NCBI GenBank assembly: GCA_947503005.1 | Contig: CANNCA010000002.1 | Location: forward strand, 434,001 to 498,000 | Origin: an uncultured Flavobacteriaceae bacterium | GTDB taxonomy: Bacteria; Bacteroidota; Bacteroidia; Flavobacteriales; Flavobacteriaceae | Direction of reading: 5' to 3' | DNA length: 64,000 nucleotides | Shown here: piece after piece, positions 56,716 through 63,512 of the stretch | Position numbering within the stretch: position 1 is the first letter of the stretch | Layout: each line of letters opens with the position of its first letter | Translations under genes and position numbers: made by a program | The notes under the pieces: model-generated | What the model saw: only the letters and a program-made list of their open reading frames with translations | What the model was told of the DNA's origin: nothing | Databases searched by the model: none

Positions 56716-57780
56716 ATGGCAGGAAATACTTTCGGAAATTTATTTAAACTAACCACTTTTGGAGAATCGCATGGAGTTGCTATTGGCGGTGTTTTAGATG
56801 GATGTCCTTCTGGTATCGAATTGAATTTTAAAGCCATTCAAGAAGAATTGGACCGAAGAAAACCTGGGCAATCAGCTATTGTCACACAACGAAAAGAGCC
56901 AGATACCGTAGAATTCTACTCTGGAATTTTTGAAGGAAAGACCACTGGAACACCAATTGGGTTCGCTATTCACAATACGAATCAAAAATCAAAGGACTAC
57001 TCGCATATCAAAGATTCGTACCGACCGTCTCATGCAGATTATGTCTACGACCAGAAATATGGCTTTCGAGATTATCGCGGTGGTGGGCGTAGTTCTGCTC
57101 GCGAAACAGCAAGTAGAGTGGTAGCAGGTGCAATTGCCAAGCAAATGTTAACTGAAATCAGAATCAACGCTTTTGTTTCACAAGTAGGTGATATGAGATT
57201 GGAGAAGGACTATAGAGATTTAGACTTATCGCTAACGGAATCTAATGATGTACGTTGTCCTGACCCGGATATGGCGGCTCAAATGGAAAACTATATCAAG
57301 GCGGTCCGAAAAGAGGGCGATACTATTGGTGGAATAATCACTTGCGTAATCCAAAACGTTCCCGTCGGATTAGGAGAACCGGTTTTCGACAAGCTTCATG
57401 CCGAATTAGGGAAAGCAATGCTCTCCATCAATGCCGTAAAAGGTTTTGAATACGGCAGCGGTTTCGAAGGAGTAAAAATGAAAGGTAGTGTCCACAACGA
57501 TCAATTCAATTCTGATGGCACCACTAAAACCAATAATAGCGGAGGAGTTCAAGGCGGCATTAGCAATGGTATGGATATTTACTTCAATGTAGCCTTTAAA
57601 CCTGTAGCCACTGTAATTCAGGGTTATGAAACCATCGACAAAGAAGGTAACATGGTACAAGCCCAAGGAAAAGGTAGGCATGACCCCTGCGTAGTGCCTC
57701 GCGCGGTTCCCATTGTTGAGGCGATGGCTGCCCTTGTTTTGGCTGATTATACCTTATTGAATCGAACGATTCAATTATAG
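56716..57780 (+). CDS. aroC: Chorismate synthase
   Basis: Last step of the shikimate pathway, FMN-dependent elimination of phosphate from EPSP. Recognised from [23 protein letters not shown] (read in parts), [31 protein letters not shown] and [18 protein letters not shown]. The final ATG-to-stop frame of 354 residues is full length. It follows the FAD oxidase and precedes a symporter gene. Confidence 0.95.
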
Positions 57781-57843: not shown

Positions 57844-59172
57844 ATGAAGAAGCTCGAATTGCATTGGAAAATAATGATTGGCATGCTACTGGGTCTTATT
57901 TTCGGATTCGGCATGACCTATCCAGATTGGGGGCGGGAATTTGTATCGGACTGGATTAATCCTTGGGGTACCATTTTTGTTAAATTGTTAAAACTTATTG
58001 CGATCCCTTTGATTCTTGCCTCCCTCATAAAAGGGATTTCAGATCTCAAGGATATATCGAAGTTTAAAAGAATTGGGCTTAGAACTATTGGAATTTATGT
58101 GTTCACAACAATAGTCGCCATTACCATTGGCCTCTTGCTAGTAAATGTACTCCAACCTGGTAATGGTATCTCCGAAGAAACCGTTGCGAAACTTTCTGAA
58201 ACATATGCAACGGACAGCGGCGTAACCTCTAAACTGGACGAGGCACTAAAACAAAAAGAAAGTGGACCCCTGCAGTTTATAGAAGATATGGTTCCTGATA
58301 ATGCTATCAATGCGATGAGTGAGAACGCATTGATGCTGCAAGTCATATTTTTTACAATTTTCATGGGGATAGCAATGCTGTTAATTGGTGAAGAAAAGGC
58401 TAAGCCGCTCAAAAATTTCTTTGACGCCCTCAATGACGTTGTTCTTAAAATGGTTGACCTAATCATGTTGACCGCTCCGTATGCCGTTTTTGCCCTTTTG
58501 GCAAATGTAGTAGCATCCTCTGGAGATCCTGATTTATTGGTGGCGCTCCTAAAGTATGCAGGTGTAGTTGTTTTGGGCCTCTTTTTGATGATCGTTTTTT
58601 ACACTATCGTAGTTTCAACCTACACAAAGAAAAATCCATTTTGGTTCTTAAAAGAAATAAGTCCTGCCCAATTGCTGGCATTTTCAACAAGTTCCAGTGC
58701 TGCAACCTTGCCCGTTACCATGGAAAGGGTAGAGGAGCATATCGGAGTCGATAAGGAGGTTTCAAGTTTTGTTTTGCCTGTAGGAGCGACAATAAATATG
58801 GACGGAACCAGTCTCTACCAAGGGGTGGCAGCCGTTTTCGCAATGCAGGTATTATGGCCGGAAGGTTTGCTTTTTAGCAATCAAATCATCATAGTTTTAA
58901 CCGCATTATTGGCATCAATAGGTTCAGCCGCGGTTCCAGGGGCGGGTATGGTGATGTTGGTTATTGTTTTAGAATCCATTGGTTTTCCTCCAGATTTATA
59001 CCCAATCGCCTTGGCTTTGATTTTTGCCGTCGACCGACCTTTGGATATGTGCCGTACGATCATCAATGTTACAGGAGACGCAACAGTGGCCATGGTAGTA
59101 GCTAAATCAGTTGGGAAATTAGGGAAACCCCGAATAAAGGAATGGGACGACCATTTGGACCAAGTGAAATAG
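57844..59172 (+). CDS. Dicarboxylate/amino acid:cation symporter (SLC1/DAACS family)
   Basis: Eight-helix transporter with two re-entrant hairpins, taking up glutamate, aspartate or C4-dicarboxylates with sodium or protons. Signature motifs are STSSSAATLPVT in hairpin 1 and NMDGTSLYQGVAAVF in the seventh helix; AVPGAGMVMLVIVLES and a late RPLDMCRTIINVTGD follow. 442 residues is normal. Ion and substrate specificity cannot be read. A 10-bp-arm inverted repeat starts at its stop codon. Confidence 0.92.
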   Translation: MKKLELHWKIMIGMLLGLIFGFGMTYPDWGREFVSDWINPWGTIFVKLLKLIAIPLILASLIKGISDLKDISKFKRIGLRTIGIYVFTTIVAITIGLLLVNVLQPGNGISEETVAKLSETYATDSGVTSKLDEALKQKESGPLQFIEDMVPDNAINAMSENALMLQVIFFTIFMGIAMLLIGEEKAKPLKNFFDALNDVVLKMVDLIMLTAPYAVFALLANVVASSGDPDLLVALLKYAGVVVLGLFLMIVFYTIVVSTYTKKNPFWFLKEISPAQLLAFSTSSSAATLPVTMERVEEHIGVDKEVSSFVLPVGATINMDGTSLYQGVAAVFAMQVLWPEGLLFSNQIIIVLTALLASIGSAAVPGAGMVMLVIVLESIGFPPDLYPIALALIFAVDRPLDMCRTIINVTGDATVAMVVAKSVGKLGKPRIKEWDDHLDQVK

Positions 59173-59252: not shown

Positions 59253-59268
59253 TAAAATAATGTTAGTT

Positions 59269-60300
59269 ATGAACATTTGTTTTTTAATGTACCCGTGGGA
59301 AGAAATAGACGCGGAAAATGATACTAGCTTGGCAATGATTCATGAATGTGTGAAGCGTAACCACGGCGTTGCCATTTGTTCTCCTGCTAATTTGACTATT
59401 CGGAATAGCGTAACCAACGCTTTTTGTACAGTAATCGGACGGATGGACAAGGTTCCCAGTAGCTTAAAATCTTTTTACAAACAAGCGAAGCTAAGGGAAG
59501 AGATGCTACCACTGGCAGGTTTTGATGTCATTTTTATGCGCGCAAATCCACCGCTGGATCCAATCATGCTGAATTTTTTAGATTCGGTTAAAGATGATGT
59601 GTTCATTATGAATTCGCTTCAGGGCATGCGCGAGGCCAATAATAAGTTGTATACTGCTGCTTTTGGTGATTCTCATAGCAACATTATTCCTGCAACCCAT
59701 GTATCTAAAAATAAGGACTATTTACTACGACAAATAAAAGAATCCGAAGCCGATAAGATGATATTAAAGCCCCTGAATGGTTTTGGGGGTTCAGGGGTAA
59801 TTCTCATAGAAAAATCAGCGATGAGCAATATTAAATCACTTCTTGATTTTTATGTAACTAACTCAGACGGAACATCTAATTATGTCATACTTCAAGAATA
59901 CATTAAAGGTGCTGACCAAGGAGATATACGAATTCTTTTATTAAATGGAGAACCTATAGGAGCTATGAAAAGGGTGCCTGGTTCTGACGATCATCGCTCT
60001 AATGTGTCGGCAGGAGGTTCGGTTGCGAAACACCAACTGACAAAAGAAGAAAAAGCGCTTTGCAAACAAATTGGTCCCAAACTGGTCAATGACGGACTCT
60101 ATTTTGTGGGTATTGATGTAATTGGCGGAAAGTTGGTAGAGGTCAACGTGATGTCTCCTGGAGGCGTAACTTATATGAACAAAGTATACAAGACAAAACT
60201 GCAATGCAAGGTCATTGATTTTGTGGAAAGCAGGGTAGTTGATAAGTTGAATGCCTTCCAAAGGCGTTCGCGATTGCGTGATGAGGTTGAAAATGCTTAG
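59269..60300 (+). CDS. Glutathione-synthetase-like ATP-grasp ligase
   Basis: 343 residues from the ATG at 59269 (MNICFLMYPWEEI). ATP-grasp enzymes of this type join a carboxylate to an amine via an acyl phosphate. The ATP-binding loop is KPLNGFGGSG (Lys167 onward) and the metal-binding E291/N293 is in EVNVMSPGGV, equivalent to EINVTSPTGI of GshB. The gene is not next to a gamma-glutamylcysteine synthetase and is fused by overlap to a peptide-hydrolase operon, so a glutathione role is not assumed; the ligated substrate is unknown. Its end overlaps the next start by eight bases. Confidence 0.85.
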   Translation: MNICFLMYPWEEIDAENDTSLAMIHECVKRNHGVAICSPANLTIRNSVTNAFCTVIGRMDKVPSSLKSFYKQAKLREEMLPLAGFDVIFMRANPPLDPIMLNFLDSVKDDVFIMNSLQGMREANNKLYTAAFGDSHSNIIPATHVSKNKDYLLRQIKESEADKMILKPLNGFGGSGVILIEKSAMSNIKSLLDFYVTNSDGTSNYVILQEYIKGADQGDIRILLLNGEPIGAMKRVPGSDDHRSNVSAGGSVAKHQLTKEEKALCKQIGPKLVNDGLYFVGIDVIGGKLVEVNVMSPGGVTYMNKVYKTKLQCKVIDFVESRVVDKLNAFQRRSRLRDEVENA

Positions 60301-61117
60301 GTTATCTGTATCTGATATCATTTCTAAAATAGCAGCTGAAATTCCTTTTGAGGCGGTTTCAGTAGATTATTCCTTTACTATTAAGATAGAAGACTATGCT
60401 CCCTACATCTGTGGCGCAGTTCACAATGGTCATCAATTTCGTAAATCACTTTGGGATAACTGCCTACATACCGAATACGAACGTTGGTATGAGGAAGACC
60501 CTTGCACCAAAGAGATGGTACAATCACACCCGATTGTTATTGCCGGGTGCGATAGTCGGTTCGAATATGACTTGAACCGGGCTCCTGAAACTGCTATCTA
60601 CACGGATGCATGGGGGAAAGAACTGTGGAAAAATCCTTTACCGGATCATGAAAAAGTAATGAGCCTTAAAAAGCACACCAATTTCTACAAAGTAGTTGAT
60701 GCTTTGATTAACAAAATTGAATCAAAATATGGGAAAGCCATAGTTTTTGATATGCACAGTTACAATTGGAAACGTTGGGATAGACCAGTGCCCACTTGGA
60801 ATCTGGGTACTGCTAACATTGATAACGGTCGCTTTGAAGCAATAGCTGACTCTTGGAGTAAAAAATTAGGCGCCATGAACTTGCCCAACGGAATCGAATC
60901 AAGTTCCAAAATTAACGACACATTTCAAGGCAATGGTTACTTTCTAAAATACATCACACAAAACTTTGCGAATACGCTGGTATTAGCTACCGAAATTGCA
61001 AAAGTCTACTGTGATGAGTATGAGGGCATAATTTATCCTGAAGTAGTTCGTTCTGTGGAAGAACACTTGAAAGAATTGATACCTTTGCAGCTAAGGGAAT
61101 TCCAAGAAAGTATATAA
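60293..61117 (+). CDS. N-formylglutamate amidohydrolase-like enzyme
   Basis: 274 residues from the ATG at 60293; an in-frame ATG at 60281 is also possible. The FGase-like metal and catalytic motifs are present: GAVHNGHQFRKS, GCDSRFEYDLNRAPE and FDMHSYNW. FGase removes a formyl group from formyl-glutamate; this subfamily, next to ATP-grasp and DUF1704 genes and without histidine-degradation neighbours, probably acts on another acyl or peptide amide. Overlaps the preceding stop by eight bases and the next start by one base (TAATG). Confidence 0.83.
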   Translation: MLRLSVSDIISKIAAEIPFEAVSVDYSFTIKIEDYAPYICGAVHNGHQFRKSLWDNCLHTEYERWYEEDPCTKEMVQSHPIVIAGCDSRFEYDLNRAPETAIYTDAWGKELWKNPLPDHEKVMSLKKHTNFYKVVDALINKIESKYGKAIVFDMHSYNWKRWDRPVPTWNLGTANIDNGRFEAIADSWSKKLGAMNLPNGIESSSKINDTFQGNGYFLKYITQNFANTLVLATEIAKVYCDEYEGIIYPEVVRSVEEHLKELIPLQLREFQESI

Positions 61118-62286
61118 TGCAGTCCACCGTACTTACCGAATTACAACATGAATATGCCGAGCTTTTCGATATTGACGGCAATTTAGACCGATTGATTAAA
61201 AAAATCGAGTTGCTAAGTTACGTGAACCCTCTGAACATTGAAAAAGAGAAACATCACTTCTTTGCATCCAAATATACCGAAGACCCTGATTTTAGGTATC
61301 CGAAACTCAAGTTCAATCCATATAAATTGCATCGGATGTTCTTTTCCCAACGTTTGGAAAGAATCGAAGATGAACATATCCGTACGCTGTACAAAGAGAT
61401 TATATATTATTACTCCAATATGGTGCAATGTATCGAATCAATAGGGGAGAAGAAGCGTTTTCACTATAATTCATTGCGGGTTTATGGTTCTCCCACGGAA
61501 AAAGATGTTGAGAATGCACGGTTTATACTTCATTTCGCTAGCGAACCGCTAACCAGCGAGATGGAAAAGCTTTTCAATGCTGAGGAGGCAAAAGCCTATT
61601 TTGAGGACTTTTCAAAAGAATATGACTTTCCTTTGAACATTCGGTTTTCTACCCATATCGCAGCGGATGCAATGGTGAGCAATGCCTCACAGGCCCTGTT
61701 GATCAAACGGAACGCCAAGTTCAGTAAAAATCAACTACTGACTTTAGCTAACCATGAGATAGGGGTGCATTTGGTTACGACCTATAATGCAATGGAACAA
61801 CCGTTAAAGATTTTTTCCAATGGTTTTCCAAAAAATGTAGAAACGCAAGAAGGCTTGGCCGTTTTTAGCGAATACATGAGTGGGGCATTGACCTTAAAAC
61901 GCCTAAAAGAGTTGGCGTACCGGGTTTTGGCTTCAGATAGTTTGATTAAGGGATACACTTTTTCAGATACTTTTGACTTGATTCACAATCAATACAAACT
62001 AAATCGAGATGATGCCTTTGGTATTACTTTAAGAGCGCATAGAGGAGGCGGTTTTACCAAAGACCGCTTGTACCTTAGCGGATTACGTAAAATATACAAG
62101 CGATACCGGAAAGAGGAATCCATGGAACCTTTACTTTCTGGTAAAGTGTCTTTGGATTCTGAAATGGCCATTAAACGCTTGTCCAAAATGGGCTTGGTTA
62201 GTAAAAATACCCACACCAATCTCGCCTATAGACAAAATAGGAACACCAACAAGACTTTAGATTTTATATTGAATAATCTGAAGTAA
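61117..62286 (+). CDS. DUF1704 family zinc metallopeptidase (QEGLA motif protein)
   Basis: 389 residues. The family is listed as flavohemoglobin-expression-modulating QEGLA protein (TIGR02421) and is related to the eukaryotic tubulin tyrosine carboxypeptidase MATCAP. A gluzincin-like zinc site is visible: HEIGVH at 213-218 and the QEGLA motif at 244-248 providing the third ligand Glu245. A C-terminal helical region follows (about 260-389). A peptide or protein C-terminal carboxypeptidase activity is inferred from the family. Its start overlaps the previous stop (TAATG), and the alpha/beta hydrolase gene follows by nine bases. Confidence 0.83.
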   Translation: MQSTVLTELQHEYAELFDIDGNLDRLIKKIELLSYVNPLNIEKEKHHFFASKYTEDPDFRYPKLKFNPYKLHRMFFSQRLERIEDEHIRTLYKEIIYYYSNMVQCIESIGEKKRFHYNSLRVYGSPTEKDVENARFILHFASEPLTSEMEKLFNAEEAKAYFEDFSKEYDFPLNIRFSTHIAADAMVSNASQALLIKRNAKFSKNQLLTLANHEIGVHLVTTYNAMEQPLKIFSNGFPKNVETQEGLAVFSEYMSGALTLKRLKELAYRVLASDSLIKGYTFSDTFDLIHNQYKLNRDDAFGITLRAHRGGGFTKDRLYLSGLRKIYKRYRKEESMEPLLSGKVSLDSEMAIKRLSKMGLVSKNTHTNLAYRQNRNTNKTLDFILNNLK

Positions 62287-62295
62287 AGCAAAAGA

Positions 62296-63099
62296 ATGAA
62301 AAAGGCAAGGCGTTTTTTCAAGGTTTTGCTCGTATTAATGGCGATAACTTTAGGTATGCTATATCTTTTTCAGGAAAAGTTAATTTTCTACAGCAGTAAA
62401 CTTCCAAAAGATTTTCAATATACGTTTGAAACGGAATTCGAAGAGTTGTTTCTGACCGCAAAAGACGGAGCTGTGCTTAACGGGCTTCACTTTAAAGCCA
62501 AAAACCCAAAAGGTGTCATTCTTTATAACCATGGAAATGCAGGAGAACTCGATTCTTGGGGGAAATGGGGCGAACTATTGGTGAATCGATATTCGTACGA
62601 TGTAGTTATTTGGGATTATCGCGGGTATGGAAAAAGTAAAGGAAAACGAAGACAGCAGCTCATGCTTGATGATGGATTACTCTTTTATAACTATTGCAAT
62701 GAATTGTTTTCCGAAGACTTGATTACCATTTACGGTCGTTCATTGGGAGGTTTTTTTGCTACCCATATTACAAAGAAGCACCAACCAAGGCAATTGGTTC
62801 TAGAATCTACCCCAACTAGCATTTTGAAAGTAGCAAACGAGTCATACCCATATTTACCTTCAAATTGGTTGTTGAAATTCAGATTCCAAAATGATGGCAA
62901 TATTTCACAAATAGTTGAGCCGACCTTTTTTATTCATGGCACAGAAGATGATTTAATTCCATTTGAACATGGCCGGCGGTTGTACGAACTTTCCAAGGCT
63001 AAATCTAAACAATTCTACCCTGTGGAAGGAGGCAATCACAATGACCTTTCCAATTTTGAGGATAAGTACTTTAAAGCTTTGGATGAAATCTTTAATTAA
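62296..63099 (+). CDS. Membrane-anchored alpha/beta hydrolase (Bem46-like)
   Basis: 267 residues with an N-terminal membrane helix (about 7-25, VLLVLMAITLGMLYLF). Catalytic residues are recognised in the nucleophile elbow YGRSLGG, Asp in IHGTEDD and His in GGNHND. The mature enzyme should face the periplasm or cytoplasmic face of the inner membrane. It is the last gene of the four-gene operon, nine bases after DUF1704, but its role there is unclear and it may only be carried along. Confidence 0.83.
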   Translation: MKKARRFFKVLLVLMAITLGMLYLFQEKLIFYSSKLPKDFQYTFETEFEELFLTAKDGAVLNGLHFKAKNPKGVILYNHGNAGELDSWGKWGELLVNRYSYDVVIWDYRGYGKSKGKRRQQLMLDDGLLFYNYCNELFSEDLITIYGRSLGGFFATHITKKHQPRQLVLESTPTSILKVANESYPYLPSNWLLKFRFQNDGNISQIVEPTFFIHGTEDDLIPFEHGRRLYELSKAKSKQFYPVEGGNHNDLSNFEDKYFKALDEIFN

Positions 63100-63104
63100 A
63101 TCGA

Positions 63105-63512
63105 TCAATCCAAAAACTTCGCTTGTAATTCGGGCGTAGGAATCATACAAGTTTCTTTTTGACCAAACCACTTATAACGGTTGCGCGCTATCAAATCGTA
63201 TACGATATCTCGTAAACCACTGGGAATCAAATTCAATAGCTTCGAAATAACACGATACCCTTTAAGATGCTGGCCAATCTTCAAAGCAGCTTCCGATTTG
63301 GTATAATATGCCACTCCCGGTTCAATAAAAATTACGGAATCCATCTTATCCGTATCAATGTTTCGCTCTGAGATGAGTTGCTGTCCGATTTCACTTTGCA
63401 GAGAAGCATAGCGGAAGATATCTTTTTTATCCCTCTTGATGACAAACTGAACAAAGCCATTGCAGAGATTGCAAACGCCATCGAAAAGGATTATTTTTTT
63501 TGTGTTAGCCAT
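63105..63512 (-). CDS. DCC-family thiol-disulfide oxidoreductase-like protein (DUF393)
   Basis: 135 residues with the opening ILFDGVCNLCNGFVQFVI, the DxxCxxC motif that defines this thioredoxin-like family. No signal peptide. Function of the family is poorly known; redox activity is assumed from the cysteines. It converges with the alpha/beta hydrolase gene (five-base gap). A 12-bp palindrome (atcgtatacgat, 63195-63206) inside it recurs at 63645-63656 in the following gap. Confidence 0.82.
   Translation of the reverse strand: MANTKKIILFDGVCNLCNGFVQFVIKRDKKDIFRYASLQSEIGQQLISERNIDTDKMDSVIFIEPGVAYYTKSEAALKIGQHLKGYRVISKLLNLIPSGLRDIVYDLIARNRYKWFGQKETCMIPTPELQAKFLD

Follow-up and report, generated by a model that had tools for sequence, protein, structure and literature searches.

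A PRK12458 ATP-grasp ligase, a zinc deacylase and a MATCAP protein form a conserved bacterial gene set, possibly for ligation and removal of amino acids

A stretch of 64,000 nucleotides from an uncultured Flavobacteriaceae bacterium (NCBI GenBank assembly GCA_947503005.1, contig CANNCA010000002.1, positions 434,001 to 498,000; hereafter the window) carries overlapping genes for an ATP-grasp ligase of the PRK12458 subfamily, a zinc amidohydrolase resembling formylglutamate amidohydrolase (FGase) and a MATCAP (DUF1704) metallo-carboxypeptidase-like protein. This gene set very probably behaves as one functional unit. As to its function, we tentatively favour a dedicated module for amino-acid ligation and removal, in which an acidic amino acid would most likely be joined to a carboxylate and two zinc enzymes would reverse or process the product. 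An earlier note on this DNA had proposed reversible tagging or a small-peptide system, which remains the leading class of explanation. Bacterial MATCAP is now linked to a single ligase family and a single deacylase function, giving a three-enzyme reaction that can be tested.

The three core genes are conserved together

The distribution of the genes was assessed in two genome samples. In the phylum sample (198 genomes), MATCAP was found in 12 genomes and a high-scoring PRK12458 ligase in 11, all of which carry MATCAP; ten of these ligases exceed the family cut-off and the other (G002) reaches 396.5 bits. The best PRK12458 score in a genome without MATCAP was 214.8 bits, and G186 was the sole MATCAP genome without such a ligase. 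In the family sample (299 Flavobacteriaceae genomes), MATCAP was detected in 155 genomes, the ligase in 147 and the FGase of subtype A, the type found in the window, in 127, absence being defined as no match at E 1e-50 for the ligase and 1e-10 for the A-type FGase. All 147 ligase genomes contain MATCAP (Fisher p 1.5e-76, a value that overstates the association because the 299 genomes are related members of one family). A ligase gene lies upstream on the same strand within 6 kb in 122 of the 127 A-type FGase genomes, among the matches listed. The three core genes are kept together well beyond the genus; a lack of co-conservation, named in the earlier note as the contrary outcome, was not what the survey found.

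Two gene orders were distinguished. Subtype A reads symporter, ligase, FGase and a short MATCAP of about 390 residues, the last two sometimes being fused (FGase::MATCAP in L007, L058 and L059); in Photobacterium sp. DA100 the ligase is followed by such a fusion. Subtype B, found in Bacteroidota loci and on four rhizobial plasmids, reads FGase, a long MATCAP of about 610-650 residues and ligase. Two mosaic genomes (G103, G118) carry both A and B ligases. The extra N-terminus of the long MATCAPs aligned end to end with the A-type FGase (hhalign 94%); the B-type FGase reached 18.8% in this comparison, and short MATCAP, ligase and AstE 0.2-1.6%. None of 35 such N-termini contains either FGase motif, D.HSYN or RFE.D.NR; the former is present in 78 of 79 A-type and 8 of 8 B-type FGases, the latter in 77 of 79 and 6 of 8. 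FGase and MATCAP seem to be fused in both subtypes, with a presumably active FGase domain in one and a dead one in the other. Module genes are present in two phyla, including rhizobia and Vibrionaceae, Pseudomonadota being covered through plasmid records, where six loci were opened.

The ligase differs from glutathione synthase

The best NCBIfam match of the window ligase is NF009110 (PRK12458; 468.8 bits, cut-off 408). According to passages of PMC3462692, a survey of lactic acid bacteria took proteins of this subfamily as markers for GshB. The name glutathione synthetase given to PRK12458 proteins is a probable mis-annotation. Likeness to GshB is nevertheless visible: among solved structures, the closest in sequence is E. 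coli GshB (2.5e-39), and the ligase passes the glutathione synthase equivalog NF003573 (281 bits, cut-off 272). It stays below the cut-off of TIGR01380, another glutathione synthase model (233.7 versus 299.05), and the one subtype B ligase tested stays below that of NF003573 (221 versus 272).

Ligase sequences were aligned in 117 rows, 105 of them distinct, matches under about 300 residues having been excluded beforehand. One hundred of the distinct rows are module ligases (64 of subtype A, 36 of B); in every one of them, T288 of E. coli GshB is replaced by glycine and T285 by methionine, leucine or phenylalanine; both threonines are retained in E. coli GshB and in two putative GshB-like Bacteroidota rows (L075, L076). 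In the window ligase, the motif SPGG stands where E. coli GshB reads SPTC. Residues R210, R225, R233, D273, E281 and N283 of GshB are kept in the module ligases. We take T285 and T288 to be a GshB signature, held in a loop that presumably contacts the substrate. A tree was built from 46 of the 105 distinct rows, with A and B sampled randomly and a GshB group of four that includes E. coli GshB twice. Ligase A, ligase B and GshB formed three separate groups, each with a branch support of at least 98; the tree carries a long-branch warning and does not resolve which two groups are sisters.

Neither glutamate-cysteine ligase family (PF04107, PF04262) had a match in the whole window genome (G000), both searches being positive in the E. 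coli control, so that the earlier remark that no gamma-glutamylcysteine synthetase lies nearby holds for the entire genome. This absence and the glycine at position 288 in 100 of 100 ligases make glutathione synthesis unlikely. One could still imagine a true glutathione synthase acting on imported gamma-Glu-Cys beside two unrelated hydrolases, as the NF003573 score and the nearest solved structure would suggest. We rejected glutathione synthesis, and hold even this version to be very improbable, given the missing glutamate-cysteine ligase, the change of both signature threonines, the separation of the ligase groups from GshB in the tree and a ligase that was never found without MATCAP in 299 genomes. 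PF04262 was not found in any of the 12 phylum-sample genomes that carry MATCAP. Bacillithiol is likely to be the thiol of these genomes because all 12 carry BshC. Rhizobia and Vibrionaceae, which use glutathione, also have the module, and a role tied to either thiol was therefore rejected.

A deacylase that is exchanged for another family

The FGase-like protein matches PF05013 (50.3 bits, cut-off 28.9) and is encoded by the sole gene of the window genome that does so. An NCBIfam search returned no family at E up to 0.001, and a sequence search against the PDB gave no match. Its predicted structure, computed from 26 rows, has a mean predicted local distance difference test score (pLDDT) of 89.5, and Foldseek matched it to 2q7s and 2odf. 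Metallo-carboxypeptidases such as 4a37, which we take to be CCP-like, follow the FGases as weak matches (E 5.6e-5, template modelling (TM) score 0.37, root-mean-square deviation (rmsd) about 11). A canonical HutG role was rejected, as there is no curated NCBIfam match and only one FGase-family gene in the genome.

The A-type FGase is present in 125 of the 147 ligase genomes of the family sample. In all 22 genomes without it (L137, L139-L148, L159-L169), an AstE/AspA-type gene adjoins the ligase, a call made with Pfam (PF24827) on two of them and by similarity to L137 on the others. These 22 proteins are near-invariant (at least 95%) at H30-G-N-E33, D78-L-N-R81, D123-C-H125-T, E181, G183, Q184 and H185. 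Sequence profiles of FGase and AstE showed no link (0.3-1.4%, hhalign), which indicates that a different family has replaced the FGase. Enzymes of both families cleave N-acyl groups off glutamate or aspartate, and this shared activity gives the strongest hint at the chemistry of the module.

The bacterial MATCAP resembles tubulin carboxypeptidases

The third protein matches PF08014 with 356.6 bits (cut-off 27). This family, formerly DUF1704, is named MATCAP, "Microtubule-associated tyrosine carboxypeptidase", in the Pfam copy used. The score on TIGR02421 (QEGLA, flavohemoglobin-modulating) is 311, below the cut-off of 338.65. The HExxxH motif is present in 69 of 70 MATCAP rows, the remaining row ending with its locus, and [QE]EG[LIM]A in 64; of the other six, five are cut by the locus end and one reads QEGLS. 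The predicted structure (28 rows, mean pLDDT 86.9) is most like human MATCAP 7z5g, with E 1.7e-8 and a TM score of 0.56-0.60 on the query; M32 carboxypeptidases follow. A profile of the window MATCAP and its relatives also reached 7z5g (6e-10), with the HEIGxH, EEG/QEG and F.KD..YL.G motifs aligned. Human TMCP1 and TMCP2 and a Tetrahymena homologue cut C-terminal residues of tubulin tails and remove polyglutamylation, according to the passages seen of PMC10499314; homologues in bacteria are not a subject of those passages, and the stem "prokaryot" is absent from the text of that article.

Our literature search found no description of a job for the bacterial MATCAP relatives, and the gene context does not support their flavohemoglobin-modulating name. 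The suspicion in the earlier note that the default names misfit is borne out.

Members of the set have surfaced in published work under other names. In Photobacterium damselae, the successive locus tags A0J47_RS17020 ("GshB") and RS17025 (QEGLA) were up 38.4 fold and 27.5 fold, respectively, at 1% versus 3% NaCl; the study lists rimK among its 20 top genes and interprets "GshB", one of the top genes at low salt, as glutathione synthetase (PMC10308900). Between them, the two tagged genes probably encode all three functions, because the order in Photobacterium sp. DA100 is ligase, then FGase::MATCAP. For Vibrio vulnificus, a passage of PMC3091676 lists VV2_1203 (COG3930) next to VV2_1204 ("glutathione synthetase").

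A divergent lone MATCAP, reading HEAYVH and QEGIA, was observed in G186 (L004 / L189). Ligase, FGase and AstE genes were not found near it in the 11 kb opened.

Locus layout and neighbouring genes

All frames of the window operon are open and on the + strand (Table 1). The ligase, FGase-like and MATCAP genes overlap by 8 and 1 bases and are followed after a 9-base gap by an alpha/beta hydrolase gene; the earlier note had these distances exactly right, and the four families that it named (ATP-grasp, FGase-like, DUF1704, alpha/beta hydrolase) were all matched in Pfam. The ligase has an alternative in-frame ATG at 59260. The Met at 60293 that starts the FGase-like protein is conserved without exception in 26 relatives, though the frame extends further upstream. 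The nearest relatives retrieved are Flavobacteriaceae, with Maribacter among the named ones. A + strand scan of the window with the flavobacterial promoter pattern gave two matches (24829 and 35156) and none near the operon.

Table 1. Features of the operon region, in window coordinates
Feature	Position	Strand	Family or remark
Chorismate synthase-like gene, preceding the symporter	56716-57780		resemblance; counterpart in L119 is PF01264
SDF-family symporter	57844-59172	+	PF00375, 420 bits
Symporter DRPLDMCR	59032-59055	+	start of the D..R...N..GD pattern
ATP-grasp carboxylate-amine ligase, PRK12458 subfamily, 343 residues	59269-60300	+	PF02955 and PF02951; NF009110
Ligase SPGG	60154-60165	+	
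FGase-like zinc amidohydrolase, 274 residues	60293-61117	+	PF05013
FGase-like AVHNGH	60416-60433	+	
FGase-like DSRFEYDLNR	60551-60580	+	
FGase-like DMHSYN	60749-60766	+	
MATCAP (DUF1704/QEGLA) metallo-carboxypeptidase-like protein, 389 residues	61117-62286	+	PF08014
MATCAP HEIGVH	61753-61770	+	
MATCAP QEGLA	61846-61860	+	
MATCAP RAHRGGGFTKD	62032-62064	+	
Alpha/beta hydrolase	62296-63099	+	PF12146/PF00561
DCC1-like thiol-disulfide oxidoreductase, convergent with the operon end	63105-63512	-	PF04134

Subtype A operons usually begin with the symporter. In 34 of 40 related ligase-bearing loci it precedes the ligase by at most 400 bases; in four of the remaining six (L052, L054-L056) other genes intervene, and two are short contigs. 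Its best NCBIfam match is GltP (256 bits, below the cut-off of 638), and it shows a D..R...N..GD pattern that we take to be typical of Asp/Glu carriers. Among the genes inserted between symporter and ligase (L052, L054) or between symporter and FGase (L135, L136), one LTD and one Calx-beta domain scored over the cut-off, and the rest gave weak AIR9/Calx-beta matches or nothing. Of 43 related loci, a few of them truncated before the place where it would lie, eight contain the alpha/beta hydrolase, as do L120, L121 and L130 among further loci; as a core member it was rejected. The operon outlined in the earlier note keeps its three core genes without the alpha/beta hydrolase, which the note had listed as a fourth gene; the symporter, the sulfurtransferase described below, the AstE/AspA variants and the present MATCAP name of DUF1704 had been missed.

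Proposed reaction and alternatives

In the ligation-and-removal module that we favour, the reaction could run as follows. Judging by its family, the ligase would use ATP to activate an acceptor carboxylate and attach an amino acid, more likely an acidic one (glutamate or aspartate) than glycine. The MATCAP zinc carboxypeptidase would take the C-terminal residue off the product, and the FGase-like enzyme, or elsewhere AstE/AspA, would cleave the remaining N-acyl amide and free the acidic amino acid, which the symporter may supply or recover. The acceptor might be a small metabolite or the tail of a protein.

Several observations weigh against this proposal. The presumed preference for an acidic amino acid is drawn from what is known of the families and from the transporter pattern described above. 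The window ligase passes a glutathione synthase equivalog, and three of the 12 phylum-sample genomes with MATCAP hold a GCS2-family gene. Three subtype B loci (L170-L172) combine a long MATCAP and a ligase with neither FGase nor AstE/AspA beside them; their genomes also carry a subtype A set with FGase. The FGase::MATCAP fusion of L058, on a Vibrio replicon, has no ligase beside it or on that replicon. An FGase occurs without ligase or MATCAP in two family genomes (G208, G398), and eight of the 155 MATCAP genomes of this sample lack both ligase and A-type FGase. In all eight (L127-L134), MATCAP adjoins the symporter, as if ligase and FGase had been deleted from between them. Together with further lone MATCAP copies beside the symporter (L044, L046, L173-L175), they indicate that MATCAP can serve a purpose where its ligase is missing. 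Finally, a plain cycle of amino acids leaves an inserted sulfurtransferase gene, considered below, unaccounted for.

Such lone copies (MATCAP in 8 of 155 genomes, FGase in 2 of 127) would fit chance neighbours that share a promoter, each serving its own pathway. Co-occurrence, gene fusions, the replacement of one deacylase by another and presence in two phyla make this scarcely credible.

In a one-way pathway to a small peptide-like metabolite, either stress solute or signal, the ligase would form the amide and the zinc enzymes would trim a protected precursor, reversing nothing. Core genes that travel together fit it, and two ligases in one gene cluster (G103, G118, G397) are as expected for successive couplings. 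Stress-type genes (glgA and glgX, or Ku) near two of the four rhizobial plasmid loci opened point the same way, as does the rise of "GshB" and QEGLA at low salt in the part of the P. damselae study cited above. However, retention of MATCAP without a ligase fits salvage or removal better, two hydrolases per ligase are many for a short pathway, and no recurrent exporter was seen in the loci opened. We consider such biosynthesis possible but unlikely.

The sulfurtransferase raises another option. In all 17 loci examined (L119-L125, L149-L158; e.g. L122:5261-6106), a gene of the 3-mercaptopyruvate type separates ligase and FGase. These loci were selected for their ligase-FGase gap: 16 of the 49 gaps of at least 700 bases among the matches listed, picked from coordinate lists in two batches, and one gap of 329 bases. 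The identity was assigned by Pfam on five proteins and by similarity for the others. In a turnover of thiol or persulfide peptides, the ligase would build a cysteine-containing amide, the hydrolases would dismantle S-conjugates and the sulfurtransferase would load or unload sulfur. A GshB-like ligase suits such a scheme, as do the active loop CG[ST]G[IL]TA, present in 16 of the 17 loci, and the best NCBIfam match of the L122 protein, 3-mercaptopyruvate sulfurtransferase (215 bits, cut-off 250). Yet the window operon holds no sulfurtransferase gene and the ligase-FGase gap is below 60 bases in 67 of 122 cases among the matches listed; moreover, the module is shared by genomes with BshC, in which bacillithiol is likely, and by glutathione users. 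Thiol turnover thus appears decidedly unlikely, and we retain the ligation-and-removal unit as the favoured reading.

Comparison with known systems

The module ligase shares with GshB its fold, its nucleotide-site residues and its catalytic arginines. It differs in the substrate-end signature and in being found with MATCAP, and the window genome lacks a glutamate-cysteine ligase.

RimK belongs to the RimABK system, which handles the glutamate tail of ribosomal protein S6. There, as in the module, an ATP-grasp ligase works with hydrolases, but the module ligase scores only 47.7 on the RimK equivalog PRK10446, far below the cut-off of 331, and MATCAP is not known to be part of RimABK. The window genome has a RimK gene on contig 3 (L179:5065-6898; 332.3 bits, cut-off 331) that is directly followed by an AstE/AspA-type gene, a second ligase-deacylase pair; in 22 module operons it is AstE/AspA that replaces the FGase.

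Amidoligase clusters of other Bacteroidota offer a further parallel. One (L182) combines a RLAN/RimK ATP-grasp gene with GCS2, FGase and a C39-type peptidase; another (L184) has ATP-grasp and FGase genes, and L183 and L185 are similar by gene sizes and family matches. Clusters of ATP-grasp, GCS2 and FGase differ from the module in containing GCS2, a family (PF04107) with no match in the window genome, and in having no MATCAP beside them; their ligase is of another family (33.6 bits on PRK12458). We found no description of the present module in the literature; an earlier one is possible, most likely in the 2009 amidoligase survey of Iyer and colleagues.

In eukaryotes, tubulin tails are modified by TTL/TTLL ligases, CCP deglutamylases and MATCAP/TMCP carboxypeptidases. 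The module contains the same three broad kinds of enzyme, an ATP-grasp ligase, an M14-like zinc hydrolase and a MATCAP (compare 7z5g), but its ligase is GshB-like and its FGase-like enzyme resembles 4a37 only weakly. On a speculative and rather improbable view, the module could be the bacterial counterpart, perhaps the source, of part of the tubulin-tail code: the ligase would write a C-terminal amino-acid tail on one or a few proteins, MATCAP would erase it residue by residue and the M14-like FGase or AstE would remove the branch-point or last residue, tuning protein activity with salinity or stress. Across these systems, the pairing of a ligase with a deacylase is a recurring theme, to which the module adds MATCAP.

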